57,717 nucleotides of DNA from an uncultured Bdellovibrionales bacterium (GTDB lineage: Bacteria > Bdellovibrionota > Bdellovibrionia > Bdellovibrionales > Bdellovibrionaceae). The stretch lies in NCBI GenBank assembly GCA_903926205.1, contig CAIYID010000004.1, forward strand, positions 1 to 57,717. Reading direction: 5' to 3'. A model generated the notes under the pieces. The model saw only the letters and a program-made list of their open reading frames with translations, had not been told where the DNA came from and did no database searches. A program made the translations under genes and the position numbers. This document shows positions 127-27,352 of this stretch, piece after piece; position 1 is the first letter of the stretch, and the number at the start of each line of letters is the position of its first letter.

Positions 127-822
127 TTGCAAAGAATTTTGATCGTGGATGATGACAAAGTGATACTAAGGACTTTGCAAGCCATGCTTGAAAAATACTC
201 CTATTCTGTTGTTACTGCGGTTGACGGTCACGATGCGTATGAAAAAATACAACAAGAAAAATTTAATCTTGTTATCACAGATATTAATATGCCACATCAA
301 TTTAATGGTTTTCGCTTGATGAAAGTCATTCGAGAAGATGCGCGTAATAAAACGACTCCTGTGGTTGTTCTCACGGGAAGAAACAATGAAATAGATGTTC
401 TTCGTACCATTCAGGCCGGCGCTGATGATTATATAGTTAAGCCCATCAATGTGGACGTTTTTCTTGCAAAAATAGAAAACCTCATGGGTTTAAAAAATAA
501 AAATCCAGGTTTTTATACATCTAAGGTGGAATATTCGGCGACTTGGTTAGCCCATTTAAAAATTGTAGGAATTTCGGAGCAAGGATTGATATTTAAAGCT
601 CCATTGCCATTACCAATTGATCTTAAATTTAAAATTGAAAGTCCTTTATTTACTGAGATTGGTATGGCTCAACCATTTTTAAGAATTTACTATGTTTCTC
701 CTATTGATCCATCAGATCAAAGCTATCATGTAGAAACTAGTTTTGTCGGCCTAGGTGAGACTGATTTTCAGCTCATACGTCGCTGGGTTATGAAAAATAA
801 TCTTAATAAAATGGCCGCCTAG
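127..822 (+). CDS. Response regulator with PilZ-like C-terminal domain
   Basis: A 231-residue protein. Residues 1-120 form a receiver domain, with acidic residues D8-D10, phosphoacceptor D52 in the stretch TDINMP, and the conserved lysine in VKPIN. Residues from about 130 look like a PilZ-type domain: short beta strands with a SEQGLIFKAPLPLP segment and a closing FVGLGETDFQLIRRWV. PilZ domains usually bind cyclic di-GMP, but the RxxxR motif is not clear here, so nucleotide binding is uncertain. The start is a TTG at 127, chosen because AGGAGG lies just before it at 117-122. It opens a run of two-component genes and has no adjacent partner kinase, so it is probably fed by a kinase further along. 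Confidence 0.8.
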   Translation: MQRILIVDDDKVILRTLQAMLEKYSYSVVTAVDGHDAYEKIQQEKFNLVITDINMPHQFNGFRLMKVIREDARNKTTPVVVLTGRNNEIDVLRTIQAGADDYIVKPINVDVFLAKIENLMGLKNKNPGFYTSKVEYSATWLAHLKIVGISEQGLIFKAPLPLPIDLKFKIESPLFTEIGMAQPFLRIYYVSPIDPSDQSYHVETSFVGLGETDFQLIRRWVMKNNLNKMAA

Positions 823-948
823 ATCAGTCTCGGCGTTCTGTCTTAAAGTTAAACAAAAAAGTTGAGAATTCTTAACACCAGCTCCATCGCCCTTTCATTT
901 TATGACTGTACAATAAAGAGAGTCACAAAAAGGAAAGGCGTGTTCTTA

Positions 949-2307
949 ATGATAAGAGTTCTGATTCTTGAAGATGATCCGGTTGAACTTAAAATCTGGC
1001 AGCTTCGTATAAAAAATTTGTTCCCTAAAGCTGAGGTTTTAGCTTTACCCTGCGTTGATCGCTTGGACCCGGATATTGGTAAAATCGAGGATGTTGGAAA
1101 AAATTTTGATATCATTATTTCAGATATTTTTTTAGCGGGTGAAACGAGCGGTATTGAGTTTGTTAGGCGTCAATCTCAGGAAACACAGCAAAAAATCATA
1201 CTTTCCTCAGGGGTTTCTTTAGAAAGTTACACTGAGCTCGCGAAGGAACTGAATTTAAATTGTCATTTTATTCAAAAGCCACTGAATAAAATAAATGTGC
1301 AAGAAATGCTGATAAAGGTTCTGCAAAAACAAGATAAGGATTTTTTCGCGGAATCAACGTTCGAAGAAACTGATAAAGTCATTGATTTTCAGAAGAAAAA
1401 AATTCGTCAGTCAATGCCAGTTTTTCTCATTACTGGGTGCAGTTCTGGAGTCGGTGAGTCTTTAGCAAAACTATTGTTAATGAAAAAAGCTTATCGACTG
1501 GTGCTAACGGCGCGTCCGAAATCATTGGCTCTTTTGAGGGAAAGATTTCGTGAGGATTGTCGTGTAATGATTCTTCCTCTCGACCTGACAAACGAAAGTC
1601 AGATACAAGAGACGGTGCTGCAGGTTTTAAAAAGATGGGGACGTATCGATGTGCTGGTAAATAATGCAGGTCTTTGTTACCGCTCAGTGGTTGAGCAAAT
1701 GGATATGGATTCTGAAGAATCGCAGATGAAAACAAATTATCTTGGGCCTATGGCGCTCATCAGATCAGTTATGTCGGTCATGAGGGAAAATGGGCGTGGT
1801 AAAATCATTAATGTGTCTTCTGTTTCAGGAATTATGGGAATGCCGACCATGGCTTCCTACAGTGCATCTAAGCATGCTCTTGAAGGAGCTTCGGAATCTC
1901 TTTGGTATGAAATGAAACCTTTTGGTATTAATGTCACCGTCGTACGGCCTGGGTTTGTAAACAACGAAGGTCATTCCCATGTTGCTTCGGCCGACAAGGC
2001 TCGTCTTGCAGAAATTCTAAATGGACCCTACTCAGACTTCTATGTATTCATGAAACCGTTTGTTTCTTTTTTAATGAAATTTTCACTCCAAAATTCTGAT
2101 GCCGTTGCAATTAAAATAATGAAAATAATAAAGACTCAAAATCCGCCTCTTTGGGTGAACGCAACTTTTGATGCTTATTTGTTTTCTTTCTTGAAGTCGA
2201 TACTGCCTGCTACCTGGTTCTACAAACTGATGAATCAATTTTTCCTTCGAGCGGCCAAGTGGGGAGAGGGATATAGCAAGGCAGATAAACGAAGATTAAT
2301 TTCCTAA
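949..2307 (+). CDS. Receiver domain fused to a short-chain dehydrogenase/reductase
   Basis: A 452-residue protein with two parts. Residues 1-130 are a receiver domain: D9/D10 acidic pocket, phosphoacceptor D59 in IIISDIF, lysine K110 in FIQKPLN. Residues 157 to the end are a classical SDR oxidoreductase: nucleotide-binding TGCSSGVG (162-169), NNAG (238-241), an INVSSVSG serine strand, and the catalytic pair Y304/K308 in YSASK, followed by a PGFV segment. The frame stays open further upstream, but ATG 949 is preceded by AGGAAAGG at a good distance and begins exactly at the receiver domain. The substrate is unknown. Phosphorylation probably controls an enzyme directly rather than DNA binding. 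The fusion is uncommon and appears intact. Confidence 0.85.
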   Translation: MIRVLILEDDPVELKIWQLRIKNLFPKAEVLALPCVDRLDPDIGKIEDVGKNFDIIISDIFLAGETSGIEFVRRQSQETQQKIILSSGVSLESYTELAKELNLNCHFIQKPLNKINVQEMLIKVLQKQDKDFFAESTFEETDKVIDFQKKKIRQSMPVFLITGCSSGVGESLAKLLLMKKAYRLVLTARPKSLALLRERFREDCRVMILPLDLTNESQIQETVLQVLKRWGRIDVLVNNAGLCYRSVVEQMDMDSEESQMKTNYLGPMALIRSVMSVMRENGRGKIINVSSVSGIMGMPTMASYSASKHALEGASESLWYEMKPFGINVTVVRPGFVNNEGHSHVASADKARLAEILNGPYSDFYVFMKPFVSFLMKFSLQNSDAVAIKIMKIIKTQNPPLWVNATFDAYLFSFLKSILPATWFYKLMNQFFLRAAKWGEGYSKADKRRLIS

Positions 2308-2356
2308 AATAGGTTTGTCTATTTCGCTTTCAAATTGCGATCGAGTTATTATTTAG

Positions 2357-3070
2357 CTAGGCGATTTTCACGGAGTTCATTGTTTGAAGAGAAAATTTGT
2401 ATCCAGCGTTGTGAATAGCAATTATAGTGTGATCTGAGCGCGAGATTTTTTTTCGAATTCGACTGATATGTGAGTCAATTGTTCTATCTGAAATGCTGAA
2501 ATTTTGCTTCCACGCAGCATTAATTATCTGCTCGCGAGACATTACCTGATCTTTGTATTTTGCTAAAAAACTGAGAATTTTAAATTCCATTGAGGTTAGT
2601 TCAATGATTTCTGTCTGGTTATCGAAGAAAGTAAAAACTTTTTGTTCAAGATGGTTGATCGTCAAGTTTCCTGCTTGAGTTAAAGTTTCACCTTCTTTTA
2701 CTTGTTGATGTCGTTTGAGTCTTGCTTCGACTCTGATTTTTAATTCAACAGGATCAAAGGGTTTTGGGATGTAGTCTTCTGCTCCCATATGAAAGGCCAG
2801 GACTTTATTCTGGATTTGAGTTTTTGAAGTCAGAATAATAACTGGAATTTTTGCAAAATGCTCATTTTCATTGAGTCGGGTGAGAAATTCAAAGCCATCT
2901 CCATCGGGCAGACTAAGGTCGAGAATGATAAAATCGATTATATTTTGTTTTAATTCTTTATATGCTTCGAGCAGCGTCGTTGCTGTTAAAACTTGTGCAG
3001 TACTGAGAAAAGTACGTTTAATGATGAGTTGAACTTCTTTAGAATCTTCTACACAAAGCAATTTAATCAT
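2357..3070 (-). CDS. OmpR/PhoB-family response regulator
   Basis: A 237-residue regulator. Residues 1-120 are a receiver domain with acidic E8/D9, phosphoacceptor D51 in LDLSLPDGDG and lysine in PKPFDP. The C-terminal part is a winged-helix DNA-binding domain of the Trans_reg_C type, with EFKILSFLAKY and SISDRTIDSHISRIRKK. A GGAGAAG ribosome site precedes ATG 3070. It is convergent with the REC-SDR gene and divergent from the Hpt gene. No sensor kinase is adjacent on its strand. It could receive phosphate from the Hpt protein encoded next door. Confidence 0.88.
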   Translation of the reverse strand: MIKLLCVEDSKEVQLIIKRTFLSTAQVLTATTLLEAYKELKQNIIDFIILDLSLPDGDGFEFLTRLNENEHFAKIPVIILTSKTQIQNKVLAFHMGAEDYIPKPFDPVELKIRVEARLKRHQQVKEGETLTQAGNLTINHLEQKVFTFFDNQTEIIELTSMEFKILSFLAKYKDQVMSREQIINAAWKQNFSISDRTIDSHISRIRKKISRSDHTIIAIHNAGYKFSLQTMNSVKIA

Positions 3071-3314
3071 GGAACTTCTCCGATAATCATATCGGCAGAA
3101 CAGAAGTAAAGTTCAAGTATTTTACTTGCGTTTCTTAAGCTAAAACAGAGAAGATATGGAATAGGTTTGAGTTATAAATTGATAGGCATACCAATATGAG
3201 ATTTGTTAAGACTTTTTGAAGTTGGTAGCTCAAGTATTTGAGAGAAAAAGTTCTTAAAAGCAAAAGAGAATAAGCTAAAAAAATATCTTATTCGGAATAA
3301 GGGATTAGGCAATA

Positions 3315-3692
3315 ATGGCACTGGCCGAGACAAAACAATCTGTCTTAAATTCCGAGACCCTCGAGAGTCTAGAAAGCCTCCAAATCGAGGGAGAGCCGGA
3401 TTTGGTTTTTGAAATTTTCTCAATTTTTATTGAAAACGCTGCAGAGAGATTGGCGTCAATGGATCGACTAGCAAGTTTGGCACAGCTTCAGGACTTATCA
3501 ATGGAAGCTCATGCTCTCAAATCAAGCGCTCGAGCTATTGGAGCCCTCAATCTTGGAAAAATGTGTGAACAGTTGGAATTTCACCCGGAGCAAGGTCTCG
3601 GAGCAGAAAAACTTCTTGAAAAACTTCATAGTGAAATGAACCTTGTTATCATTGAACTAAAAAAACATAAACCTGCTTTGTCAAATTTCTAG
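3315..3692 (+). CDS. Free-standing Hpt (histidine phosphotransfer) protein
   Basis: A 125-residue, all-helical protein matching the Hpt family. The phosphorylatable histidine is H66 in EAHALKSSARAIGA, followed by the usual glycine and a leucine-rich helix with MCEQLE. Hpt proteins shuttle phosphate between the receiver of a hybrid kinase and downstream response regulators. The hybrid kinase at 6942-8645 carries a C-terminal receiver but no Hpt of its own, so this gene would complete a phosphorelay with it; that link is inference. The ribosome site is weak (AGG before ATG 3315). Confidence 0.85.
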   Translation: MALAETKQSVLNSETLESLESLQIEGEPDLVFEIFSIFIENAAERLASMDRLASLAQLQDLSMEAHALKSSARAIGALNLGKMCEQLEFHPEQGLGAEKLLEKLHSEMNLVIIELKKHKPALSNF

Positions 3693-3730
3693 TATTGACT
3701 GGGTTTCAATTCCGGTTAACTCTTTAGAAT

Positions 3731-6700
3731 ATGGAAAATTCAAAAAAACCAGAATATTTAGTCGGCATTGGTGCGTCTGCGGGTGGTCTTGAGGCGCTTC
3801 AAGATTTTTTTAATAATATGCCTGCGGTTCATGATCTTGCTTTTGTTGTGATCCAGCATTTGTCGCCGGATTTTAAATCGCTCATGAATCAGCTCTTGAG
3901 TAATTTCACAAAGCTAAAAATTCAGGTCGTCGAAAATAAAATGCTCATCGAAAAAGACACGATCTATTTGATTCCACCAAAGAACAACATGATTGTTGAA
4001 AACGGTACACTTTATCTTTCGGAGCAAGAACGCGGACATGTTTTAAATTTACCAATAGACATTTTTTTTAAATCTATGGCTAAGGATTTTCTCAATAAAT
4101 CGATTGCGGTTGTTTTATCGGGAACTGGAAGCGACGGCTCGGCAGGAATTCTAGAAGTTGGTGGTGTTGGCGGACTGGTGATTGCACAAAATCCTGATAG
4201 CGCTCAATTTGATGGAATGCCAAGAAGTGCTATTAATACCCAAGTTGTCAATAAGGTTCTTGATGCCAACTTGATCCCAGCATTTATTTCTGATTATCTG
4301 AAGAATCCGATTATCCAAGCAACAGAGTTAGAAAAGGATGAATATAAAAAATCTGGGGATACTTATGGGCAGATTTTTAGTCTTTTAGCTAAGAAAAAAA
4401 AGGTTGATTTCTCCGATTACAAAGAAAGTACAATGTATCGCAGGATCGATCGACGAGCAAAGACACTCTTGATTTCCTCAATCGAAGAATATGCTCAGCG
4501 TTTGTTCAATGACGACACGGAAATCGAGTGTCTTTTTAATGATCTCTTGATTGGTGTCACTTCTTTTTTTAGAGATCATGAAGCTTTTGAAGCTCTTGAA
4601 TCTGAGCACATTCCAGCACTCTTTCAACAAAGAATTGATACCCAACAATTACGTGTATGGATTGCCGCCTGTTCGACTGGCGAAGAAGCTTACTCTTTTG
4701 CTATTCTGCTTAAAGAATACTCGGAAAAGCTAAAAAAGGCTTTTGATATTAAAATTTTTGCTAGCGATATAAGTCGGAGCTATCTCAGCATTGCAAACCA
4801 AGGCTGTTTCACCGAAGCGTCTCTGGTCAATGTATCGCAGCAAAGAAAAGATCAATTTTTTTTAAAAAAAGGGGATCGTTATTATATTGTGCCTGAAATA
4901 CGCAATATGATTGTGTTTGCTCCGCAAAATTTGGTTGTGGATCCTCCCTTTACCAATATCGATTTAATTTCATGTAGGAATTTTTTAATTTACATAAAGC
5001 CTGAGGCACAACAACGAATAATTTCCTCATTTCACTTTTCCCTCAATAAGGGAGGAATTTTGTTTTTAGGTTCGAGCGAAGGAACTGGCGATCTTAGTAG
5101 CAGTTTTTCCGAAGAAGATAGAACCTGGAAGATTTATAAAAAAATGACTGATGGGCGTATGCCTTTTTATGTAGGACCACGAAAACAGACCACGAGTCGT
5201 TCAATAATTGAACACTTAGATCAAAAACGCTCTTTCAAAGGGCCCAGAATTCTTAAGCAGAAAATTTATGACTTGCTGCTTGAACAATACCTTGAAGATT
5301 CTATTGTTATTGATGTTGAGGAGGAGATTCTACACACGACGGGTAAGGCTAATGTTTTTTTAAATCTTCAATCAGGAAGAATGTCGAGTAATATTATTCG
5401 CTTGATTCATGAAGACTTGCGATCAGTGATAACTTCTGGAATTCATCGAGTTCAAACAGAAAGACGAAATGTTGTTTATAAAAAAAATATAGTTATGATG
5501 GATGGGCAGGAAATCAATGTCGATATCGCAATTAATCCTCTTTATTTAGCTCAAGATGAAATTGGTTTTTTTGTTTTAAAATTCGAAAATTTTTATGAAA
5601 GAAAGAAAGAAGAAGCAACGACGGCTGTTTATGAGATAAATAGTCAAGCTAATCAATTGATTCACGATCTTGAATTTCAGATTCAGACAACAAAAGAAAG
5701 CCTGCAATCAGCTCTTGAAGAGGCCGAAACTACCAATGAAGAACTGCAGTCGACAAATGAGGAACTGCTCGCTTCGAATGAGGAACTCCAATCAACCAAT
5801 GAAGAACTGCATGCTGTGAATGAGGAGCTGTATACCGTCAATTCAGAACACCAAAAGAAAATTGGAGAGCTTGAATCTTTAGAAGAAGACATCAATAATA
5901 TCGCCCATGCCACCGAAGTTGGGACTATCTTTCTGGATGAAAATCTTTGTATTAGAAAAATAACACCGACGGTGTCAGAGACATACAATATTCTGCCTTA
6001 CGATGTTGGGCGTTCAGTTGAGACTTTTGCTCTGCCTTTTCTTAACGAGAACTTTATAAAAAAAGTACGTGAAGTTCAAAAATCGAAAACAGTGCAATAC
6101 GTCGAAAGCGGCAATGACAGCGAGAAATCAATTTTAATTAAAATTCTACCTTATTCGGGAGCAAAAAAAAATCGCGGGATAGTCATTTCAATGCTTGATA
6201 TGACTCTTCAAAAAAACACCGAAATTAAGTTAAATGTTAAAACAAGAGAGCTAGAAGAAGCAACAAAACAGCTCAGTGATTTCGCTCATCTTACGGCAAA
6301 AGATATAAATAATATTTTTGAAAGATTAGAAAAAGAGATAAAGGATTTGAAATGTCCTCTCAATGCAGAGGTGCCAGTGAATTGCAAGATCACTCAATTG
6401 TCACCGCGACTGGCGGCTTTGAGTCTTCATGCTAATGCCTTGAGGCAATTCTCCGAATTGCGTCGAGAAAATCTAAGACTTACGTCAGTTAATTTAAATG
6501 AATTGGTTAAAGATGTATGTTCTGAATTTAAAAGCCATGAAACTTCAGTTATTTTTGATCAGCCGATTGATTTGCCGACTGTTAGTTGTGATCAAGATAT
6601 AATTCGCAATGTTTTTGTTGCGCTGATTGGTAACGCGCTTAAGTTTAATGTCTCGTCTCAAAAGAAAGTAAAGATCGGTTACTGTCATTCAGAGGAACAG

Positions 6701-6961
6701 CATATTTTTTCAGTGCACGATAACGGCATTGGAATTTCTGAAGACCAATTTTTTCAAATATTTAAAATATTCTCCGGATTAAATCGAAAAGGTCTTTCTT
6801 CAGAGGGACAGGGTGTTGGCTTGGCTCTGGCTAAACGAGGTTTGGAATTGCAGAAGGGAAAGATCTGGGTTGAATCGGAAGTTGATGTTGGTTCTACTTT
6901 TTATTTTTCGCTTCCTGATAATTCCATTGAGTCGGGCGGGGTTGAATATCGAATCAAATGA
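3731..6961 (+). CDS. CheB-CheR-coiled coil-PAS-histidine-kinase-like fusion protein
   Basis: A 1076-residue multi-domain protein. Residues 10-185 are a CheB methylesterase domain with catalytic S16 (GASAGG), H43 (IQHLSP) and D135 (GTGSDG). Residues about 210-470 are a CheR methyltransferase, with AACSTGEEAYS as SAM-binding loop and CRNFLIY. A coiled coil of NEEL repeats spans about 655-720, followed by a PAS domain (about 725-830) and a kinase region. The expected H-box reads FAHLTAKDI, so lysine K857 replaces the phosphoacceptor histidine. The ATPase part retains an N box (NALKFN), DNGIGIS and GQGVGLALAKR. There is no N-terminal receiver on CheB. Such fusions are common near phytochromes and stress sensors, where the Che domains are not usually chemotactic. 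Confidence 0.9.
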   Translation: MENSKKPEYLVGIGASAGGLEALQDFFNNMPAVHDLAFVVIQHLSPDFKSLMNQLLSNFTKLKIQVVENKMLIEKDTIYLIPPKNNMIVENGTLYLSEQERGHVLNLPIDIFFKSMAKDFLNKSIAVVLSGTGSDGSAGILEVGGVGGLVIAQNPDSAQFDGMPRSAINTQVVNKVLDANLIPAFISDYLKNPIIQATELEKDEYKKSGDTYGQIFSLLAKKKKVDFSDYKESTMYRRIDRRAKTLLISSIEEYAQRLFNDDTEIECLFNDLLIGVTSFFRDHEAFEALESEHIPALFQQRIDTQQLRVWIAACSTGEEAYSFAILLKEYSEKLKKAFDIKIFASDISRSYLSIANQGCFTEASLVNVSQQRKDQFFLKKGDRYYIVPEIRNMIVFAPQNLVVDPPFTNIDLISCRNFLIYIKPEAQQRIISSFHFSLNKGGILFLGSSEGTGDLSSSFSEEDRTWKIYKKMTDGRMPFYVGPRKQTTSRSIIEHLDQKRSFKGPRILKQKIYDLLLEQYLEDSIVIDVEEEILHTTGKANVFLNLQSGRMSSNIIRLIHEDLRSVITSGIHRVQTERRNVVYKKNIVMMDGQEINVDIAINPLYLAQDEIGFFVLKFENFYERKKEEATTAVYEINSQANQLIHDLEFQIQTTKESLQSALEEAETTNEELQSTNEELLASNEELQSTNEELHAVNEELYTVNSEHQKKIGELESLEEDINNIAHATEVGTIFLDENLCIRKITPTVSETYNILPYDVGRSVETFALPFLNENFIKKVREVQKSKTVQYVESGNDSEKSILIKILPYSGAKKNRGIVISMLDMTLQKNTEIKLNVKTRELEEATKQLSDFAHLTAKDINNIFERLEKEIKDLKCPLNAEVPVNCKITQLSPRLAALSLHANALRQFSELRRENLRLTSVNLNELVKDVCSEFKSHETSVIFDQPIDLPTVSCDQDIIRNVFVALIGNALKFNVSSQKKVKIGYCHSEEQHIFSVHDNGIGISEDQFFQIFKIFSGLNRKGLSSEGQGVGLALAKRGLELQKGKIWVESEVDVGSTFYFSLPDNSIESGGVEYRIK
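5735..5839 (+). repeat. Five imperfect 21-bp tandem repeats encoding a NEEL coiled coil
   Basis: Inside the CheB-CheR fusion gene, a 21-bp unit beginning AATGAAGAACTGCA recurs five times. Each copy encodes one seven-residue NEELxxx turn (NEELQST, NEELLAS, NEELQST, NEELHAV, NEELYTV). It is a heptad-register repeat of the linker coiled coil typical of this protein family, so it is protein-coding structure rather than a mobile or regulatory repeat. Confidence 0.85.
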
Positions 6962-8645
6962 TCAGTTAAAAATCGATTCTTTTCAAGAGATTGTCAATTA
7001 TAAAAAAGTATTGATGTTTACTCGTGAAGTATTGCTCGTGATGCGAGTTGGCGGAATCTCCGAAGCTATTTTTAATTTCTTAAGAGAGCATCTTAAATGT
7101 GAAAAGGTTGGTTTAATTCGAATCACTCATGGTGAAGTTGATCTGAAATTATTTATTGCGAATAGTCATTTAATCACCATAGATGAGGAAATAAAAAAGA
7201 TCATAAAAAAACAAATTGAACTAGATCAGACAATTTTACATTTTGTTAGTTCGAATAGATCTATTTCAATACTGTTACTCAAGTCGCGAGGCGAGTTGAT
7301 CGGGGCACTTCTTATTTACAATAGCGAAGCTTTTATAAAAACGCTTGAACTGCCATCGGATTACCACTTGCTGATGCTCTTTTTAAGTCATACTTCTTCA
7401 GCATTAAGAGGAGCGCATGAAATTGATAGTGCCATTAATCAAAAGCTTAATCAGTCAATCACATTAGACCGTGACCGTTTGCAAAGCATAAATAAACGGC
7501 TGGAAAATGCGATGCAAGTGAAGTCAGAGTTTTTGGCGAGAATGAGTCATGAAATGAGAACTCCTTTGAGTGTGATTTTAGGTATTATAGATTCTTTGGA
7601 AGAGAAGATTCAGGATCGCTCTGTTGCGGACCTTTTTGGTACAATGAAAAATGCGGGATCAAGTCTGTTGATGCTCATCAATGATGTTCTAGATATTTCA
7701 AAAATAGAAGCCAATGAGTTAAAACTGGATTTGAAGCCTTTGAATTTTCGCGAGTTTATAGAGCAGACGGTTGCTCTTTTTCGAGAAAAGGCGAAGCAAA
7801 AATCAATTCAGCTTGGATTTAGAATAAACCAAGATGTGCCAGAATTTGTATTAGGAGACACACTCAGGTTAAAGCAAGTGCTTTTTAATCTTCTAGGTAA
7901 CGCCCTCAAGTTTACGACAGAAGGTGAAATCCACTTAAGTGTTGTGAAATACCGAAAGCGTGATCATATTTTATTTGAAATTTCAGATACAGGTATTGGG
8001 TTAAGTGCGGAGCAAGCAAAAAAAATATTTGAACCATTTACCCAAGCTGATGAAAGTACCACTAGAAAATATGGTGGAACAGGACTTGGTTTGAGTATTA
8101 CGAAGAAGTTGGTTAAATTAATGGGAGGCGAAATTTTCGTAACTGAAAATAAAGCAGCAGTGTCCGGGTCCGTTTTTATTTTTGATTGCAGATTACCAGC
8201 AACTGCGGCTCCTGCAATGAGTAAACAAAAAACTGAGATTAGCACTGAGTTTTTAAATCGTCCGCTAAAAATATTGATCGCTGAAGATGTTGCGGAAATC
8301 CAACTTGTTATGAGGTTGTATTTAAAAAATACTCGCTTTCAGCTCTCTTTTGCTGAAAATGGAATTGAAGCCTTAGAAAAATACAAGGCTGGAAGCTTTG
8401 ATCTTGTTTTTATGGATATTCATATGCCAATTCTTGGAGGCATTGATTCCACGAAAAATATTCGCGAATTTGAACAACAAGAAAAGTTGGCTAAAACTCC
8501 AATCATTGCACTAACAGCCAATGCTGAGACTGATAATGCTGAAGATATGCGATTAGCCGGTGTCGATGATGTTCTGATAAAACCTGCAAATAAAGCCCAA
8601 ATAATGGATTGCATTGTTCGCTGGACTGAAAAGAAAATATTTTAG
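6942..8645 (+). CDS. Hybrid sensor histidine kinase with C-terminal receiver
   Basis: About 567 residues. The N-terminal 170 residues look like a GAF-type sensor fold without membrane segments, so the protein is probably cytoplasmic. A HisKA domain follows with H203 in ARMSHEMRTPLS. The HATPase domain has NALKFT, DTGIGLS and GTGLGLSITKKL. The receiver carries D492 in FMDIHMP and lysine in LIKPANK. The frame is open further upstream, but that part is the out-of-frame end of the preceding kinase-like gene. The TTG at 6942 behind GGGCGGGG is preferred; ATG 7014 is an alternative. It lies between the CheB-CheR protein and the phytochrome, and could accept a signal from either. Confidence 0.85.
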   Translation: MNIESNDQLKIDSFQEIVNYKKVLMFTREVLLVMRVGGISEAIFNFLREHLKCEKVGLIRITHGEVDLKLFIANSHLITIDEEIKKIIKKQIELDQTILHFVSSNRSISILLLKSRGELIGALLIYNSEAFIKTLELPSDYHLLMLFLSHTSSALRGAHEIDSAINQKLNQSITLDRDRLQSINKRLENAMQVKSEFLARMSHEMRTPLSVILGIIDSLEEKIQDRSVADLFGTMKNAGSSLLMLINDVLDISKIEANELKLDLKPLNFREFIEQTVALFREKAKQKSIQLGFRINQDVPEFVLGDTLRLKQVLFNLLGNALKFTTEGEIHLSVVKYRKRDHILFEISDTGIGLSAEQAKKIFEPFTQADESTTRKYGGTGLGLSITKKLVKLMGGEIFVTENKAAVSGSVFIFDCRLPATAAPAMSKQKTEISTEFLNRPLKILIAEDVAEIQLVMRLYLKNTRFQLSFAENGIEALEKYKAGSFDLVFMDIHMPILGGIDSTKNIREFEQQEKLAKTPIIALTANAETDNAEDMRLAGVDDVLIKPANKAQIMDCIVRWTEKKIF

Positions 8646-8727
8646 TTTTGTTACTTCTACGTCCTCGAAATTTCCATTCTCATTGACCTTTCAATTTGAA
8701 AAAGGGCTTCTTTCGGATTGCCCGAAG

Positions 8728-8757
8728 TTGATTTTATGATATATGGTTTTGTATTAA
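8728..8757 (+). promoter_or_regulatory. Possible vegetative promoter of the phytochrome gene
   Basis: A TTGATT hexamer at 8728-8733 and a TATTAA hexamer at 8752-8757 are separated by 18 bp, about 20 bp ahead of the phytochrome start. The match to sigma-70 consensus is moderate. Nothing else in the 130-bp gap looks like a promoter. Confidence 0.35.
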
Positions 8758-8776
8758 CGGTTAGACAGAGGGCGAT

Positions 8777-10306
8777 ATGAACAAAAATGGAAATATTAAA
8801 TCACCCAACCATCCTGCAGAACTAGAAAAACTTGTGCTCAGCTGTGAGGCAGAGCAACTTCACCTGTCGGGCGCAATTCAGCCCTTCGGTGCTCTTCTTC
8901 GCATCGATACGCAGACACACAAAATCACCCATGCTTCGGCCAATCTTGTCGAATTTATAGGTCTCGAGGCTTCTGCCGTTTTAGGCCAGCCGGCAGAAAG
9001 CTTGAACTGGATTAAATCAGGACTCTTTCCTTCTTTGCCGGAAACCCCGGGAAAGACTGTCGTCATTCAAAAAATTGTCGAAAAAGAAAATGAAAGAGTG
9101 GATGGCTTAGCTATACGAGGAACAAATTGCATTTTAGTCGAGTTAGAAAAAATTAATACAAACGATGAATCTCTATCTCTTGAAGATTTTTTGGATTCCT
9201 TAAGCTCTGTTCGTCTTGATCTTGGTAAAGATGCACTTAAGGAACACCATCAGCTTCTCGTGGATGCCTTCAGGGCGATCATCGGTTATGATCGCGTGAT
9301 GATCTATCGTTTTCATGAAGATTGGACTGGCGAAGTTGTTGCCGAAGCCACAAGTAAAACGAAGGGGAGCTATCTGGGGTTACATTTTCCCTCCAGTGAT
9401 ATTCCCGCTATTGCTCGGAACCTTTACCTTCAAAATCCCGCACGCATGATCCCTGATGCAAAAGTGGCTCCTATTTCAATTCTGAGTAAAGAGAACACTC
9501 CACCGGATTTAACGAGATCTGATCTTCGGAGTGTTTCTCCTGTTCATTTACAATATCTTGAAAATATGGGCGTAGCGGCTTCGTTTTCGGTGCCTATTCG
9601 TTCCGGTGGTAACCTTTGGGGTTTAGTGGCCTGCCATCATTCAAGTCCGCTTCTGCTGTCGCCTGAGCAGCGCTCAGCTTGCGTAAAATTGACAGATGCT
9701 TATAGTAAGTCGCTGATGACACATCTCTTGGGTCGAAGGATGCAAACGATCGATGGCCTCAATCGCCGTATTGATGGTATCATGAGGGATCTTGCCAATT
9801 ACAGTGATCTTCAGTCTGGAATTCACGATTTAGGAGACCAGTTGCTAGAGACGATGGAGGCGCAGGGTTTTGCAATGGCCGTAGGTAAAACTCTTGTGAG
9901 CGTTGGCGAAGGGCCCTCTATCGATCAAATAATGATGATTGATGACTGGTTTCTCAATCAGTATGAAAAACCAACCTTAATTAACAATCATCTTGAAGAG
10001 TTTTTTCTAGATCCGCAGATTCTCCAACAAATCCGAGGACTTTTAGCGATAAAAAGCTGTTCACCGCAATTAGGTTGGATTCGTTGCTATTGGTTTCGAC
10101 CTGAACTAAAACAAGAAGTCGCCTGGGCGGGTAATCCTAATAAACCAATGATGGAAAAAGAGGGCGTACTGATGCTCTCTCCTCGAAGTTCTTTTAAAAC
10201 TTGGATGGAGATTAAGTCAGGTTATAGCCGCCCTTGGAGCGGTGAGATCCAAATGGTTGCGACCAAGTTTCGAAGTGCTCTTTATTCATTGAGCTTACGA
10301 AAATAA
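8777..10306 (+). CDS. Bacteriophytochrome photosensory module (PAS-GAF-PHY, no output domain)
   Basis: A 509-residue protein with the full phytochrome photosensory core. A PAS domain follows C23, which sits in LSCEAEQLHL at the position used by bacteriophytochromes to bind biliverdin. The GAF domain (about 140-320) has YDRVMIYRF, the DIP motif in FPSSDIP, and VACHH near the chromophore pocket. The PHY domain (about 340-509) retains the tongue motif SPRSSFKTW. The protein ends right after PHY, so the usual histidine-kinase module is missing. Signal output must go through a partner, most simply the hybrid kinase just upstream. A GAGGGCG ribosome site precedes ATG 8777. No haem oxygenase gene for making biliverdin is visible in the window. 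Confidence 0.9.
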   Translation: MNKNGNIKSPNHPAELEKLVLSCEAEQLHLSGAIQPFGALLRIDTQTHKITHASANLVEFIGLEASAVLGQPAESLNWIKSGLFPSLPETPGKTVVIQKIVEKENERVDGLAIRGTNCILVELEKINTNDESLSLEDFLDSLSSVRLDLGKDALKEHHQLLVDAFRAIIGYDRVMIYRFHEDWTGEVVAEATSKTKGSYLGLHFPSSDIPAIARNLYLQNPARMIPDAKVAPISILSKENTPPDLTRSDLRSVSPVHLQYLENMGVAASFSVPIRSGGNLWGLVACHHSSPLLLSPEQRSACVKLTDAYSKSLMTHLLGRRMQTIDGLNRRIDGIMRDLANYSDLQSGIHDLGDQLLETMEAQGFAMAVGKTLVSVGEGPSIDQIMMIDDWFLNQYEKPTLINNHLEEFFLDPQILQQIRGLLAIKSCSPQLGWIRCYWFRPELKQEVAWAGNPNKPMMEKEGVLMLSPRSSFKTWMEIKSGYSRPWSGEIQMVATKFRSALYSLSLRK

Positions 10307-10339
10307 AGCTAACAATATAATTGCGAGATTCCACGAATC

Positions 10340-10366
10340 TTGAAACTTGATTTTTTCAAGTTTCAA
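10340..10366 (+). terminator. Perfect 11-bp hairpin after the phytochrome gene
   Basis: TTGAAACTTGA and its exact complement flank a five-T loop, 34 bp past the phytochrome stop codon. No long T-run follows, so it may be a weak terminator, an mRNA-stabilising hairpin or a binding site. Its position after a gene end favours transcription termination or 3-prime-end protection. Confidence 0.4.
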
Positions 10367-10433
10367 TCGAAGTAGGCCTTAGAAACCCGTGCAAAAAATA
10401 ATTTAATCATTGTAAAAAGTGTTCTTGAATAAA

Positions 10434-10715
10434 ACGGTAAAAACAGAACGCTTAGCCACGCTCTGCGGGAGGCTACTGTTAAGTTCACGGCTCAAGTAAA
10501 ATTTGATGTGAATGGTGTCAAGGGCTCTATTGGAAATAGTGAATCAATGAGTGAAAGAGAAAATTCTTTCTGAAACTTTAATGAACTCTGTTCTCGCTGA
10601 CGTTTTCGCCAATGCGAGTTTAGAATTTACCAAGACTTCAAGACGAACGAGCAAAGCTGAGTTAGCTCAAATCAAGGCCGCCTATCAGCGGCGCTCAACA
10701 GCTCGACAGTCTTAG
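10434..10715 (+). pseudogene. Possible frameshifted gene remnant
   Basis: Two overlapping open frames in different phases read like protein. The first (about 10434-10573) has no start codon and includes VKFTAQVKFDVNGVKG. The second (GTG 10551 to stop 10715, 54 residues) includes LMNSVLADVFANASLEF. A single-base change near 10555-10570 would join them into one frame of about 90 residues. No ribosome site precedes either, and I recognise no family. It may equally be non-coding sequence open by chance. Confidence 0.25.
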
Positions 10716-10907
10716 CCCCGTGAGACAATAACCAAGAATGAAGATCACCCAAAGTTAAGATAATCTGATTCGGGCTCAAGTGCTGCACTAAGGCTAACGG
10801 TTAAAAATGATAAAGTTGATTAAGATAAAAATTTATGTAAAGAATTTCAAAGCCTTCAAGGGGGACTTGAAACTTCCCTTGATCTTCTCTTAATCAATGG
10901 AGCTCAA

Positions 10908-12170
10908 ATGAAATTCAATGTAAAATGGTTAGCCTCTTTGATCCTAATAATTTTGACCTGTTTGTTCGAGTCAAAGGGTTATGCAATTCCCGCGTTTGCT
11001 CGCAGAGAAGGTGTCAGTTGTGTGACTTGTCACACCAATGGTAGCGCACCAAGGCTCACCAGATATGGCTACGAGTACCGTCGTGCGGGCTTCCGTGATC
11101 CAGATCAGATTGGCAAAGTGGAAGTTGATGAAAAAGCGATGACAATTGGAAGTCATATGTCTGCAAATATTAATATTGACTACGAATACGTCACTGAAAA
11201 GCCTGTCGGGGGCTCAGAGGGAGTCACAAGTAATCAATTCAACTCTCCAGGCTTTGCTCTTTGGCCAGCCAATGGTGGGTTCATGGGCAATTTTGGAACC
11301 TGGGTTGAGGTTGATATGAATTTCGGTACTACCGGAGGTGCTGGAAGTGCCAGTCTGTCGACAGGTGATGTCCGTTACGTCACGGGCTCTGCTGATTTCT
11401 TTTTTAGTATTCGCTCTGGCGTTCTCGCGGGTGAAGGCTTTGGAGCTTCAGACCAATGGCTTGATGATGCCAATGTGCCATTGATTGACTCTGAAAATGC
11501 CAATTACAACCAAGACACTTTGGCTTTACCTCTCGGGCCGATGACAATGTCACAACTGGGCACTGAATTCGGTTTAACCTCACACAATACCAATCTGACT
11601 TTCGGAATCTACAACGGCTTAGATGGAGCTGCCAATGGAGGCTCTGGGACGGCAGCGACGGTTCAGCCGGCATTGATGCATAAAAATAAAGACACCAAAT
11701 TTCAGTTGGATCAATTCATTGGTGATAGAGCGGCTATCACTGCTATTTATTATGACGGTTATATTCCACTTTTGGATCCTACGAATACGACGCTCTGGAA
11801 TTCACATTATTCATTGGCTCGCCTTTACGGGACCTTGTCTATCACTCGTAGCATTGACCTCATGCTTGGAAGTCAATACGGTTGGTTCGATTATGTGTCT
11901 TCCAGCGGTAACGGCAATTTTAATAATCGGGGAGGCTTTATCGGAGCGACCTGGGCCGTTTCTGACAAACTCACCTTGGCAAGCCGAATTGATTACATTA
12001 ATTACAATCTATCAAGCTCCCAGGGGACGCCAAAAGCGAATGGATTTTCTGTTCAAGCGAGTGTTCCCGTTAATAAAACGTCCATCTTCGTGGCCCGTCT
12101 AAATAATACGTCCTCCGATTTGACCGGCGTCACTGATGATGCTCGTGTTGAATGGCGCTTTCTCTTTTGA
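10908..12170 (+). CDS. Outer-membrane fused monohaem cytochrome c-porin (Cyc2-like architecture)
   Basis: A 420-residue exported protein. Residues 1-26 are a signal peptide ending near YA. Immediately after comes a single c-type haem site, C38-V-T-C41-H42, in the context AIPAFARREGVSCVTCH, followed by PRLTRYGYEYRRAGF. The rest is Gly/Asn/Ser/Tyr-rich with alternating hydrophobic strands and ends in the aromatic WRFLF, as expected of a beta-barrel inserted by the BAM machinery. A short N-terminal monohaem cytochrome joined to a barrel is the architecture of Cyc2 iron oxidases and related porin-cytochromes; function here is inferred from architecture only. GGAG precedes ATG 10908. The gene stands alone with its own terminator. 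Confidence 0.75.
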   Translation: MKFNVKWLASLILIILTCLFESKGYAIPAFARREGVSCVTCHTNGSAPRLTRYGYEYRRAGFRDPDQIGKVEVDEKAMTIGSHMSANINIDYEYVTEKPVGGSEGVTSNQFNSPGFALWPANGGFMGNFGTWVEVDMNFGTTGGAGSASLSTGDVRYVTGSADFFFSIRSGVLAGEGFGASDQWLDDANVPLIDSENANYNQDTLALPLGPMTMSQLGTEFGLTSHNTNLTFGIYNGLDGAANGGSGTAATVQPALMHKNKDTKFQLDQFIGDRAAITAIYYDGYIPLLDPTNTTLWNSHYSLARLYGTLSITRSIDLMLGSQYGWFDYVSSSGNGNFNNRGGFIGATWAVSDKLTLASRIDYINYNLSSSQGTPKANGFSVQASVPVNKTSIFVARLNNTSSDLTGVTDDARVEWRFLF

Positions 12171-20989: not shown

Positions 20990-21964
20990 TTAACTGAGGT
21001 ATTTGGCCATTTCAACAGCAAAATAAGTTAATATCATGTCAGCGCCAGCTCTTTTAATCGAATAAAGGCTCTCCACCATGGCTTTAGTTCCATCAAGCAT
21101 TCCGGCCGCTTCGGCGGCTTTGATCATGGCGTACTCGCCACTCACATTGTAGGCTGCGACTGGTGCATTGACGTGTTTCTTTAAGGTTTGGATGATGTCC
21201 AAATAAGAAAGTGCCGGCTTCACCATCACAATATCGGCTCCTTCGCGAATATCTAATTGCGCCTCGCGAATGGCTTCGCGGGAATTTCGGTAATCCATTT
21301 GGTAAGTTTTTTTGTCGCCGAATTTTGGAGCGGACTGTAAAGCATCGCGGAAAGGACCGTAAAAAGCGGACGCGTATTTAGCTGAGTAAGCTAAAATTCC
21401 AACATCAGTAAATCCTTCTTGATCCAAGGCTTTTCGAATCGCTCCCACACGACCGTCCATCATGTCAGACGGAGCGACAATGTCAGCACCTGCTTGGGCT
21501 TGAGTCACGGCCATCTTAATAAGAATCTCGATAGTCTCATCATTGAGAATTTCTCCGTCGCAAACGATTCCATCATGACCATCAGAAGAGTAAGGATCTA
21601 AAGCCACGTCAGTGATAATTGTTGATTCGGGAAAACGATCTTTCAGCATCTTAACTGTGTTGGGTAAAAGTCCGCTGGGATTGTGAGACTCTTTTGCGAG
21701 AGATGTTTTCAGGTTCTCTTCAATCGCTGGAAAGAGAGCAAAACTGGTCACACCAAGCTCTATGGCTTCGTCTATTTTTTTAGCAAGAAGATCTGGAGAA
21801 TATCTGCAAATTCCCGGCATAGTGTTAATCTTTTGAGTAATATTTTTACCTTCTGTCACAAAAACGGGCCAAATGAGCTCAGATGGAGTTAAGTGTGTTT
21901 CTGCTGTAAGATCACGAATTGATTGGCTTTTTCTAAGTCTTCGAGGGCGATATGTTATTTTCAT
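20990..21964 (-). CDS. hemB: Delta-aminolevulinic acid dehydratase (porphobilinogen synthase)
   Basis: A 324-residue enzyme of normal length that condenses two 5-aminolevulinate molecules to porphobilinogen, the second committed step of haem synthesis. The two active-site lysines are in YSAKYASAFYGPF and VMVKPALSY. The metal loop reads DVALDPYSSDGHDG with Asp rather than Cys ligands, so it is the magnesium-type (Zn-independent) enzyme. AGGAG precedes ATG 21964. It is transcribed divergently from the rest of the haem operon across an 80-bp region with a tandem repeat. Confidence 0.96.
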   Translation of the reverse strand: MKITYRPRRLRKSQSIRDLTAETHLTPSELIWPVFVTEGKNITQKINTMPGICRYSPDLLAKKIDEAIELGVTSFALFPAIEENLKTSLAKESHNPSGLLPNTVKMLKDRFPESTIITDVALDPYSSDGHDGIVCDGEILNDETIEILIKMAVTQAQAGADIVAPSDMMDGRVGAIRKALDQEGFTDVGILAYSAKYASAFYGPFRDALQSAPKFGDKKTYQMDYRNSREAIREAQLDIREGADIVMVKPALSYLDIIQTLKKHVNAPVAAYNVSGEYAMIKAAEAAGMLDGTKAMVESLYSIKRAGADMILTYFAVEMAKYLS

Positions 21965-21991
21965 AAAAAACTCCTAATCATTTTTATTAGA

Positions 21992-22013
21992 GATGACAAT
22001 CGGATGACAATTG
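21992..22013. promoter_or_regulatory. Two perfect-spacing 11-bp direct repeats between hemB and hemA
   Basis: GATGACAATCG and GATGACAATTG sit head-to-tail with no gap, differing at one base. Eleven-bp tandem half-sites are the usual operator layout for OmpR/PhoB-family regulators, and such a regulator is encoded in the downstream operon (26648-27352). The position between divergent hemB and hemA would allow control of both. Confidence 0.55.
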
Positions 22014-22038
22014 CCCCTCCAGGTTCAAGTACAAATGA

Positions 22039-22944
22039 ATGCATATGGAAGATATACTGCTCGTTCACAGAAAGTCCAATTCAAAAAAATCAAGCACAGA
22101 GCCTGTGAAATTGATCACTGGTTGTGCGGTGTGGAAGACTTGCCTTCGTCAGATTGCCTTCTTTGATGAGAGCTCTTTTGAGTTCAATTGCGAACAAGAT
22201 GATCAAATTTTACGAGGAGCTGAAGCACTTAAATTTTTACTTGAAGTTTTAACAGGTCTTCACTCGCCAGTGTTGGGTGAGACTGAGGTTCTAGGTCAAT
22301 TTCGACTTTTTATCGAATTGCGCCGAAGTCTTGGTGAAGTTCTGTTTTCAGAGCATCGCAAATGGCTTAATTTTTTAATGACTGAAGTTAAACGCATCCG
22401 TTCCGAACTGGTCTGCGGTTTGGGCTCTAATTCTTATGGTGGAATCATTCGTCAGCAAGCTAAAAATCTCAACGAAGTGAGCATTTTGGGCTCCGGCCAT
22501 TTAGCTAAAGAAATTCTTCCTTGGCTCACGCAAAAATCAGAGCTGACTTTGGTCTGTCGTGATGTTCAAAAAGTGGGCTTAGAAGATCCTAAATATGCCA
22601 AAGTAAATGTGCAAACTTACCAAAGTGTTAGCACTTTGGGCGAGGCTCTTGTCATTGCCGCCCCTCTTGAAGACGAGCAAATCTTGGCTCTCATTCAATC
22701 GGCTGGTTCGAAAGTAAAAAAGATTTTTGATTTGCGTGGGGAACAAAATCAGTTGAAACTACTTGCTACGAACATGGGTCTGGACGTTTTGTCTCTGGAA
22801 GACATGTTTGCAGAGTTAGCAGGATCAAGAACTGAAAATGAGCACAAAGTGGCTCATATTAAAAAAGTAATCACACAGCGGGTCGACCAATTCATGGAGC
22901 GCTCAGAATTGCGACCCATGGGTTGGGACGACATATGCGCCTAA
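22039..22944 (+). CDS. hemA: Divergent, shortened glutamyl-tRNA reductase
   Basis: About 301 residues against roughly 420 for the family. The identity rests on TGLHSPVLGETEVLGQF (family: GLDSxVLGExQILGQ), a VKRIRSEL helix, a Rossmann domain starting VSILGSGHLAKEILPW, and its place at the head of a haem operon containing hemL, its pathway partner. The nucleophile region reads LITGCAVWKTC, keeping a cysteine but losing the STCNRxE motif. The conserved active-site histidine before GLxS is a phenylalanine. The C-terminal dimerisation helices are mostly absent. ATG 22039 or 22045 is the start; neither has a good ribosome site. It may be a functional minimal enzyme or a relic partner. Confidence 0.75.
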   Translation: MHMEDILLVHRKSNSKKSSTEPVKLITGCAVWKTCLRQIAFFDESSFEFNCEQDDQILRGAEALKFLLEVLTGLHSPVLGETEVLGQFRLFIELRRSLGEVLFSEHRKWLNFLMTEVKRIRSELVCGLGSNSYGGIIRQQAKNLNEVSILGSGHLAKEILPWLTQKSELTLVCRDVQKVGLEDPKYAKVNVQTYQSVSTLGEALVIAAPLEDEQILALIQSAGSKVKKIFDLRGEQNQLKLLATNMGLDVLSLEDMFAELAGSRTENEHKVAHIKKVITQRVDQFMERSELRPMGWDDICA

Positions 22945-24455
22945 AAATATCAGCACGAAAAAGTGATCTCGCACGCCTACAAGCCTATCGAGTAGCGGAG
23001 GCTTTAAAAAAGAAGCATCCGCAAATAGAGATTGAATTTTTATTCAAAGAAAGTTTGGGAGATAAAAATCTCACGGATCCTTTGTGGAAAATTCCCGAAA
23101 AAGGTGTTTTCACAGAAGATTTTTATAATGAACTGGTCACTGGGGCGACCGACATGGTGGTGCACTCTTGGAAGGATCTTCCGACAGAGTTGAAGCCTGA
23201 CACTTTGATCACAGCCACTTTGCCACGAGCGGATCAGCGGGATTTGTTGTTGGTAAAAAAAGCGGATTTTTCAAAAATTCGTGAGCTGAAAAAAATTCGA
23301 ATTTTTAGTTCCTCTCCTCGAAGAGCTTATAATTTAGCGCCCTTTCTTCGAGAGACTCTTCCTTTTTCTTTGGATGGAGTGGATTTCGAATCCGTGCGTG
23401 GAAATATTCCGACTCGTTTACGAAAATTAGTAGAATCCACTGAAGTGAGTGGGCTCATTCTTGCGAAAGCGGCCCTCGATCGTTTGCTGGCAGCGCCAGA
23501 GGAAGAGTTTCTTCCAGCGCAGGAACTTATTCGCAACGCTTTAGCTCAAGTGGATTGGATGGTATTACCGCTTTCTGTGAATCCCAATGCTGCCGCGCAG
23601 GGAGCCTTGGCGATTGAAATCTTCAGTCAAAGAGAGGATCTTAAAAAATTATTACAATCCATCAATGATCCTATTTGCTTTGACTCCGTCTTAAAAGAGC
23701 GAGGGGTGCTCGCTCAATACGGCGGTGGTTGTCATCAAAAAATTGGTGTTGCGGTTTTGCCTCGAAGTTATGGGGCCATTCAAATTTGTCGGGGCTTGAC
23801 TGATTCAGGTGTTAAATTGAATCAGAATGAAGTCTTGAAAGAATCAAAACATAAATTTGCCGAAAGTGAAATGTGGAGTGGCTCATCGGAATCCTTTTTC
23901 ACCAGAGAAGAAATTAAGTTTCAAGGTATTCCCTCTGGGACGCAGGCTCTTTTTGTTGCAAAATCTTCGGCTTGGCCGAAAGGTCTTTCCTATTCTGGAA
24001 TTCTTTGGACTGCAGGAATTAATACTTGGAAGAAATTAGCAAAACTTGGTCTATGGGTGCATGGCACGCAAGATGGCTTGGGCGAAAATGAAGTGCAACA
24101 TTTGGAAATTTTAGCAGGGAAAAAATTGAATTGGGTCAAGCTCACGCATGAAGGTGGAGTCCAATCTGAAGGCAAAAAAACCCTTGCAACTTATCGCTTG
24201 TTACCAAAATCAAAAGCGGAAGTCGCAAGTGCTGAGATCTTCCAAGGTAAAAAAAGTTTTTTCTGGACGAGCAGCAGCCAATTTTTAAGAGCTCTTGAGC
24301 TAGAGCCTAGTCTTGCCGATAAAAATCACGCTTGTGGTCCTGGGAACAGCTTTCAAATCATCCAAGATAAATTGCAACAATTGCGACCTGATAAAGCGAA
24401 TCAAGTTGAGGTTTTCTTGTCGACAGAAGAATGGAAACAAAAATGCAAAAACTAA
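22935..24455 (+). CDS. hemCD: Fused hydroxymethylbilane synthase-uroporphyrinogen III synthase
   Basis: A 506-residue fusion. Residues 1-300 are Hem[24 protein letters not shown] with the catalytic aspartate, SSPRRAYNL, and the dipyrromethane-cofactor cysteine in [10 protein letters not shown]. Residues about 330-506 are a divergent HemD-like half, recognisable by [22 protein letters not shown] and ACGPGN, which match the family's TSxNAV and GPxTA motifs. Together they convert porphobilinogen to uroporphyrinogen III. The start at 22935 overlaps the hemA stop by 10 bp. No separate hemD is present in the cluster, which supports the fusion. Confidence 0.9.
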
Positions 24456-25744
24456 ATCCTTTCGCGAATCAAAGCAGTGAGTCCTTATTCGAACGAGCAA
24501 AAAAAGTAACACCCGGCGGAGTTCATTCACCGGTTCGATCTTTCAAAGGTTTAGACCATGCTCCTGTTTTTTTCTCCAAAGCCGAAGGGGCTTTTCTTAC
24601 CTCAGTGGAAGGCAAACGCTACATTGATTTTTGTCAAAGCTTTGGTCCTCTGATTTTGGGTCATCGTGATCCTGAAGTGCAAGAAGCGGTGAGCGAAATG
24701 ATCAACACCGCTTGGACCTTCGGAGCTTGCGAACCGTATTCTTTGGAACTGGCCGAGTGGATCAATGAAGAACTTCCTTGGATGGAAAAACTCCGTTTCG
24801 TTTCTTCAGGAACAGAAGCGGTCATGAGTGCTCTTCGTGTGGCGCGCGCGGCAACAGGTCGAAATAAAATTTTAAAATTTGATGGTTGTTATCATGGCCA
24901 TGTTGATTCTCTCTTGGTGCAATCGGGCAGCGGTCTTGCTGGTGAAGCAAGTTCTAGCAGTGCGGGAGTTTCCGCAGAAACGGCTCATCACACTTTAGTT
25001 ATTCCATTAGACTCAGAAGAACAACTACGCTCTGTTTTTGAAAGAGAAGGAAAGAATATTGCGGCAGTAATCATCGAGCCTTTACCTGCAAATTATGGCT
25101 TACTAGAACAGCGGAAGGAATTTCTGGCCGAAATATTCACTTTGGCTAATAAGCATGGAAGTCTGGTTATTTTTGACGAAGTGATTTCAGGTTTTCGAGT
25201 GGCAAAAGGCGGGATGGTGGAACTCACAGGCTTCAAACCGGATCTCGTGACCTATGGAAAAATCATTGGTGGAGGTTTTCCTGTTGGTTGTTATGGTGGT
25301 CGGCGGGAATTATTGGATTTGGTGGCTCCGTTAGGACCAGTGTATCAAGCTGGCACTTTGAGCGCAAACCCGGTGGGGATGCGGGCAGGTCTTGTGACTT
25401 TGAAAAAAATGAAACGGGAAAATGGCTGGGAAAAGCTCAATCAAAGAACTAAAAAATTCTCAGAACTTTTACGTACTGGCTTTGAGAAAAATTCTTTAGC
25501 ACTCCAAGTGGATTCGTCGGCCTCTTTGTTTTGGATTCATGCAGCAGTGGCAGGGAATATTCGCGCCATCGACAAAATCCCATCAACCCAAGGCTCTCGC
25601 TTTAAGAAACTTTTTCTGAAATCATTAGAAGCTGGCGTTTATTTAGCACCTAATGCTTATGAAGTAGGTTTTGTTTCCTTGGCTCATTCGGATGAATTAT
25701 TGAGCCAATCGGCTCAAATAATCATCGAGGCGGCTCGTGCTTAG
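24443..25744 (+). CDS. hemL: Glutamate-1-semialdehyde 2,1-aminomutase
   Basis: About 433 residues, normal for the family. This PLP enzyme makes 5-aminolevulinate from glutamate-1-semialdehyde, the product of HemA. Motifs: [12 protein letters not shown] at the N-terminus, [12 protein letters not shown], the PLP-contacting DEVISGFRV, and the PLP lysine K273 in [13 protein letters not shown]. The start could be ATG 24431 or 24443; both overlap the end of hemCD, so translation is coupled. With HemA it shows the C5 pathway rather than ALA synthase. Confidence 0.95.
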
Positions 25745-26651: not shown

Positions 26652-27352
26652 AATCGATTTTATTGGTTGAGGACGATGAATCCTTGGGTGAAACCTTAAC
26701 AGCTCGTTTGAAGAAAAATTATCAAGTGAATTGGGCGCAGTCAGTGACGGAAGCCTTGTCACTTTTTCGTTCAGAGAAAAAATTTGATCTTGTGTTGTTA
26801 GATGTGGGTTTGCCAGATGGAACGGGTTTTGATTTAGCAGAATCAATTCGTAAAACATCTAAAGTACAATTTGTTTTTTTGACAGCCCAGTCTGATGCAG
26901 AGTCTCGACTGCGAGGCTTTGAAATTGGAGCAGAAGAATTCATTCCAAAGCCCTTTCATTTAAAAGAGCTGTTGCTTCGGATAGATCATATTTTTCAAGT
27001 TCATGAACCCAAACTGGCGAAATTAGTTTTGAAGGATTGTGTGGTGGATTTTGAGGAATTGTCCATTCAGCGAATCACAAAGGGCATTGCTGAAAAGGTG
27101 GAGTATCCAGCACCTAACGAGATTAAATTACTGAAGTTTTTGGTTGATAAGTCTCCTCAAGTTGTGAGTCGAGACGAAATCATGGATGCGATTTGGGGAG
27201 TGGATAAATATCCGAGTCAGCGGTCCATCGACAATATTATTTTGCATTTACGGCATTTGTTGGGCGAAGACGGCGAAAGTCACATTCGTTCCGTGCGCGG
27301 TGTGGGTTATCAATGGGTAAAAAATGTGAATGAAAAAGGTGGTGAAAAATGA
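26648..27352 (+). CDS. OmpR/PhoB-family response regulator of the haem operon
   Basis: A 234-residue regulator. The receiver has acidic E8-D10, phosphoacceptor D52 in LLDVGLPDG and lysine in PKPFHL. The C-terminal winged helix includes SQRSIDNIILHLRHLL and VRGVGYQW. ATGA overlaps join it to the kinase gene before and hemE after, so it is inseparable from the haem genes. It is the obvious candidate to bind the 11-bp tandem repeats between hemB and hemA, giving an autoregulated pathway. Confidence 0.92.
   Translation: MKSILLVEDDESLGETLTARLKKNYQVNWAQSVTEALSLFRSEKKFDLVLLDVGLPDGTGFDLAESIRKTSKVQFVFLTAQSDAESRLRGFEIGAEEFIPKPFHLKELLLRIDHIFQVHEPKLAKLVLKDCVVDFEELSIQRITKGIAEKVEYPAPNEIKLLKFLVDKSPQVVSRDEIMDAIWGVDKYPSQRSIDNIILHLRHLLGEDGESHIRSVRGVGYQWVKNVNEKGGEK

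Follow-up and report, generated by a model that had tools for sequence, protein, structure and literature searches.

An output-less bacteriophytochrome encoded near a CheB-CheR protein in an uncultured Bdellovibrionales bacterium, a candidate for light signalling in trans

A phytochrome core and its signalling neighbours

The window analysed here is a stretch of 57,717 nucleotides from contig CAIYID010000004.1 of an uncultured Bdellovibrionales bacterium. It carries a gene for a bacteriophytochrome, and Pfam searches establish that genes for a hybrid kinase, a CheB-CheR kinase-like protein and an Hpt protein lie upstream on the same strand (Table 1), as had been proposed from the letters of the DNA in a preliminary description.

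Table 1. Features of the phytochrome locus, in window coordinates.
Feature	Position	Strand	Basis
OmpR-type response regulator, divergent	2357-3070	-	Pfam
Hpt phosphotransfer protein, separated by 38 bp from the CheB-CheR gene downstream	3315-3692	+	Pfam
CheB-CheR-coil-PAS_10-HATPase protein, 1076 aa	3731-6961	+	Pfam, motif inspection
Hybrid kinase HisKA-HATPase-REC, with conserved His (in MSHEMRTP) and receiver Asp	6942-8645	+	Pfam, sequence
Gap of 131 bp upstream of the phytochrome, with a weak hairpin resembling a terminator at 8711-8727	8646-8776	+	
Output-less bacteriophytochrome, PAS_2-GAF-PHY, 509 aa, biliverdin Cys = C23	8777-10306	+	ORF, Pfam, alignment, AlphaFold2, Foldseek

The phytochrome matches the Pfam families PAS_2 (residues 23-124), GAF (161-298) and PHY (335-507), each above cut-off, and no further Pfam domain was detected in the protein. 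Its biliverdin cysteine lies within SCEAEQLHLSGAIQPFG and lines up with the cysteine of other bacteriophytochromes. Alignment with other phytochromes also reveals that the chromophore-pocket signatures are kept, namely PSSDIP (D208-I209-P210), H257 and H287, and the tongue motif PRSSF spans P469-F473. In the AlphaFold2 model (pLDDT 84.4, pTM 0.81), the final predicted helix covers residues 489-508, and the protein therefore terminates one helix past the tongue. Foldseek searches with this model return the photosensory modules of Agp1, IsPadC, PsBphP and DrBphP as top matches. These results bear out the earlier assignment of a PAS-GAF-PHY protein with C23, the DIP motif and the tongue motif, whose reading frame ends right after PHY and lacks the usual kinase. 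The protein shares with the canonical kinases DrBphP, Agp1, PsBphP and SaBphP2 the PAS-GAF-PHY order, the N-terminal Cys, DIP, the conserved His, the PRxSF tongue and the fold. In contrast to these proteins, it carries no covalent C-terminal DHp/CA kinase or other covalent output.

The preliminary description had also raised the concern that a kinase domain was split off by a sequencing error near position 10306. This reading is excluded because the six frames of 10201-10910 hold no remnant of a kinase, REC or GGDEF domain. Moreover, the closest relative (L032, about 50-51% identity) stops at the same place. A truncated, decaying and non-functional phytochrome, or one that lost its kinase through such an error, is favoured by the absence of an output domain and by nothing else. 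We regard it as very improbable, given the empty six frames, the retention of all signature residues, the relatives that end at the same point and the existence of entire clades that are output-less. Judged by its conserved residues and predicted fold, the gene product is a complete red/far-red sensor without a built-in output switch, and photoconversion is predicted on the same grounds.

Among the neighbours, the first ~170 residues of the hybrid kinase match no Pfam family. The CheB-CheR protein keeps active-site motifs of CheB (GASAGG, QHL and GTGSDG) and CheR (CSTGEEAY) and still has an ATPase domain, but the position of the phospho-accepting His of aligned kinases is taken by Lys (K857). 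Residues 663-690 form four tandem EExx[AST][AST]x heptads, a pattern like that of chemoreceptor methylation sites in Tsr-type receptors. By sequence motifs only, this protein thus combines CheR and CheB active sites with chemoreceptor-type methylation motifs. Tandem heptads of this form are located between CheR and PAS in all CheB-CheR fusions examined, whether linked to a phytochrome or not. The Hpt protein is possibly the next phosphorelay step, and the OmpR-type regulator could be the relay end point, a placement suggested solely by its position.

The phytochrome gene begins 131 bp past the stop codon of the hybrid kinase gene, and no significant overall RNA structure was found in the gap. 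Its G+C content is 44%, versus 36-37% for its two neighbours. More broadly, the signalling genes at 127-8645 are G+C-poor (35-42%) compared with values mostly of 41-46% elsewhere in the window, with the step falling at the phytochrome. The gene at 862-2307 encodes a Pfam-confirmed short-chain dehydrogenase domain, and its N-terminal sequence is reminiscent of a receiver domain (MIRVLILEDDP...).

The bacterium's own genome (G000, 3.34 Mb, 99.96% complete) contains one phytochrome and three heme oxygenase-like genes. One of the three, a stand-alone heme oxygenase of 189 aa (contig C19, L057:5138-5707), has as its best matches within the analysed set heme oxygenases that adjoin phytochromes. The other two, on contig C1 (L055:11300-12604 and L056:10109-11422), encode paralogous proteins of 434 and 437 aa that are 48% identical and carry a ~220-aa C-terminal extension, for which no Pfam match was obtained in the one checked. 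The proposed search for bphO was therefore fruitful, and the presence of heme oxygenase genes makes a supply of biliverdin plausible. The window itself includes a heme biosynthesis cluster (20990-31979), with hemB on the minus strand and, on the plus strand, genes for GlutR_N, porphobilinogen deaminase, class III aminotransferase, URO-D, radical SAM, amine oxidoreductase and ferrochelatase proteins. This cluster also encloses genes for a histidine kinase (25737-26651) and for an OmpR-type regulator (26648-27352).

Output-less phytochromes in other genomes

Phytochromes were sought in relatives of the bacterium, its phylum (369 genomes), one gammaproteobacterial order, one class and genome contigs, and loci were annotated with small HMMs derived from domains that Pfam delimits. 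The relatives listed from plasmid records are all below 36% identity and are mostly annotated as kinases. Many phytochromes have a frame that ends near residue 480-590, and the output-less representatives, about 44 in total, exhibit three types of neighbourhood. A separate case is L179:8742-10475, where a 222-aa kinase fragment lies no more than 33 bp downstream of a 577-aa phytochrome. The phytochrome groups with fused ones and was probably severed from its kinase by a frameshift, which is the artefact that had been feared for the window.

In type I loci, the phytochrome is located directly downstream of, and often overlaps, the gene for a 1500-1640-aa CheB-CheR-coil-PAS10-PAS protein. This partner ends in HK-REC at L042, L043, L044, L047, L048 and L177, and in GGDEF-EAL at L032, L149, L159, L173, L174 and L175. 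A full adjoining CheB-CheR gene is present at 13 loci, and two others (L045 and L178) fit the arrangement but are cut by contig ends. At L176, a separate 610-aa CheB-CheR gene is flanked by a PAS-GGDEF-EAL gene on one side and, on the other, by the phytochrome, whose N-terminus is doubtful because its match begins late (model position 42). Type I loci occur both in the window's phylum and in gammaproteobacteria, and a heme oxygenase gene frequently adjoins them.

Type II phytochromes (L033 and L143-L148) are directly upstream of a PAS-HK-REC-Hpt protein, although no Hpt domain was detected at L144. The HK-REC-Hpt portion of this partner is the same parts list as the kinase plus Hpt of the window. 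Type III comprises about 21 phytochromes from the gammaproteobacterial order around Lamprobacter (L110, L180, L181 and L150-L172 except L159), which belong to a large output-less clade and for which no signalling partner was detected. A heme oxygenase is nearby in seven of these loci, and apart from it no signalling neighbour recurs. The window phytochrome might likewise act alone on another kind of partner, as these Chromatiales-like proteins may, for example on a transcription factor in the manner of the known light-dependent RpBphP1-PpsR2 complex (PMC6899989). We consider this quite unlikely, since the window gene falls outside the type III clade and adjoins kinase genes.

The window resembles type I loci in that a CheB-CheR-coil-PAS gene is present upstream on the same strand, with one gene between. 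However, CheB-CheR and effector are not joined in one abutting polypeptide, because the kinase is separate and the gap intervenes, whereas in most type I relatives the partner gene overlaps or nearly touches the phytochrome. Within the phylum, a CheB-CheR neighbour accompanies output-less phytochromes with upstream sequence in nine of nine cases, but fused phytochromes in none of ten. The nine are the window, L042, L043, L044, L045, L047, L048, L177 and L178, of which L045 and L178 rest on partial evidence; L046, which lacks upstream sequence, is outside the count. The bacterium's own genome has only two CheB-CheR fusions of the window kind, and so the occurrence of one of them two genes ahead of the phytochrome, on its own strand, would be a coincidence of ~0.1%. 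The second fusion (CheB-CheR-PAS-HK-REC, 1639 aa, L187:5614-10533, contig C48) is unlinked to a phytochrome.

These findings suggest that the light signal is probably passed between proteins rather than along one chain, because the relatives adjoin the same kind of signalling protein. They also revise the first portrayal of the neighbours as orphan two-component parts: the CheB-CheR protein, rather than the hybrid kinase, is the best-conserved neighbour in relatives. No close orthologues of the window CheB-CheR protein (66 family genomes) or of the hybrid kinase (41 family genomes) were found.

Histories of the sensor and the CheB-CheR protein

A tree of 63 phytochromes places 43 output-less ones, a count that leaves out L179, on one side of a branch with support of 83/93. 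A single origin of output-less phytochromes is therefore possible on the basis of this tree. The window phytochrome nests with L032, L174 and L175 (100/99) and is the sole member of that clade in the 369 phylum genomes. CheB-CheR modules linked to phytochromes group in a clade (99/94) that is distinct from unlinked modules, and the window CheB-CheR protein is placed at the base of this clade (92/92) after the long branch L198 is dropped. In trees that include L198, the window sequence has no resolved place or sits on a long branch. Its identity to all linked CheB-CheR proteins is 33-38%, and close kinship with the partner of L032, L174 and L175 was rejected by an AU test (p-AU 1e-4). For 12 type I pairs, window excluded, the distances between phytochromes and those between CheB-CheR proteins correlate with r = 0.85, to which shared ancestry contributes; this value falls to 0.55 with the window added.

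The trees thus indicate that the sensor in the window is gammaproteobacterial-like and that the CheB-CheR protein beside it has another kinship, and a step in G+C content separates the two. Given these histories, K857 and the intervening hybrid kinase, the sequences are compatible with re-pairing, with mere adjacency or with transfer of the sensor alone, each of which is possible. In the last case, the phytochrome would have been acquired horizontally from a type I system of gammaproteobacteria and would have left its CheB-CheR-GGDEF-EAL protein behind, so that its partner would be unlinked and the adjacent genes mere neighbours. The tree discordance, the G+C step and the isolation of the sensor within its phylum are as expected from such an event. 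Furthermore, its nearest phytochromes are all paired with a CheB-CheR-GGDEF-EAL protein, and none of the five CheB genes in the bacterium's own genome encodes a fusion of this kind, as judged by frame length or HMM. However, a CheB-CheR gene is once more found upstream on the same strand, for which chance is an unlikely explanation, and its product groups, though weakly, with the phytochrome-linked clade. We therefore view solitary transfer as a minority explanation that is possible but rather doubtful.

Proposed signalling in trans

We hypothesize that the product of the window gene is a functional biliverdin phytochrome core and that it signals in trans with its own neighbours as partners, a reading that we favour by a modest degree from the sequences compared. 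For the output-less phytochrome family as a whole, signalling in trans is likely. The intact frame with its pocket signatures and confident fold, the recurrent pairing, the pair co-variation, the type II parts list and K857 all speak in favour of the reading for the window. The tree discordance, the intervening kinase, the 131-bp gap and the G+C step count against the window's neighbours as partners. The original proposal of a split photoreceptor that signals by contact is thus upheld in part. Signalling in trans is the best reading, as type I pairing recurs and no fused phytochrome in the analysed set exhibits it, and protein contact is the presumed route. The assembly of such a receptor from the window's own parts is less secure, as phytochrome and CheB-CheR protein have different histories.

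According to this hypothesis, heme oxygenase, for which a gene is present, would supply biliverdin. The PAS-GAF-PHY core is expected from its conserved residues and fold to bind this pigment at C23 and to toggle between a red and a far-red state. The tongue and the last helix would then act on the separate CheB-CheR-coil-PAS partner, the adjacent hybrid kinase or both, a step suggested by the conserved gene pairing and the pair co-variation in relatives. Having lost its phospho-accepting His, the window CheB-CheR protein may serve as an adaptor. Kinase activity would come from the HisKA-HATPase-REC protein, from which phosphate would move to its own REC domain, then to Hpt and to a response regulator. 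More speculatively, CheR and CheB might adjust the sensitivity of the complex through methylation of the chemoreceptor-like heptads in the coil of the partner itself. Such self-methylation, a conceivable step of adaptation, would not be specific to phytochrome-linked CheB-CheR proteins.

Signalling in trans by photosensors is already known (PMC6899989, PMC6798134). In Rhodopseudomonas palustris, RpBphP1 signals through light-dependent contact with the separate protein PpsR2; unlike the window phytochrome, RpBphP1 carries PAS9 and HOS output domains, and its partner is a transcription repressor (PMC6899989). Short LOV proteins and SR-Htr complexes, in which Htr is a methyl-accepting transducer, are sensors without a covalent effector for which signalling in trans is presumed or shown (PMC6798134). 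These differ from the window system because the sensors are flavin or retinal proteins and the partners are not CheB-CheR fusions (PMC6798134). Output-less phytochrome entries in R. palustris are mentioned in passing, in passages that give no partner or gene context (PMC9587094). The phytochrome diguanylate cyclase IsPadC (PDB 5LLW) couples its core to GGDEF, a domain also present in the partners at L032, L174 and L175, but this link is covalent in IsPadC and divided over two genes at the three loci. No description of a phytochrome and CheB-CheR pairing was found in the open-access PMC papers searched.

Phytochrome signalling has mostly been studied as a conformational change along one covalent helix. 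A recurrent lineage in which this helix is cut and a separate CheB-CheR protein is present represents a natural mix-and-match system of sensor and effector. We tentatively raise the prospect, which we rate as speculative, that output-less phytochromes and CheB-CheR-coil partners constitute a widespread class of soluble photoreceptors. One protein would sense light and the other would provide memory by means of a methyltransferase, a methylesterase and a chemoreceptor-like methylation coil of its own, and would relay the signal to interchangeable outputs (kinase or c-di-GMP enzyme). If such a two-protein class exists, the window would be a further variant, in which coil protein and kinase are separate genes. 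The pairing of phytochrome and CheB-CheR protein would connect red-light sensing to chemoreceptor-style adaptation.
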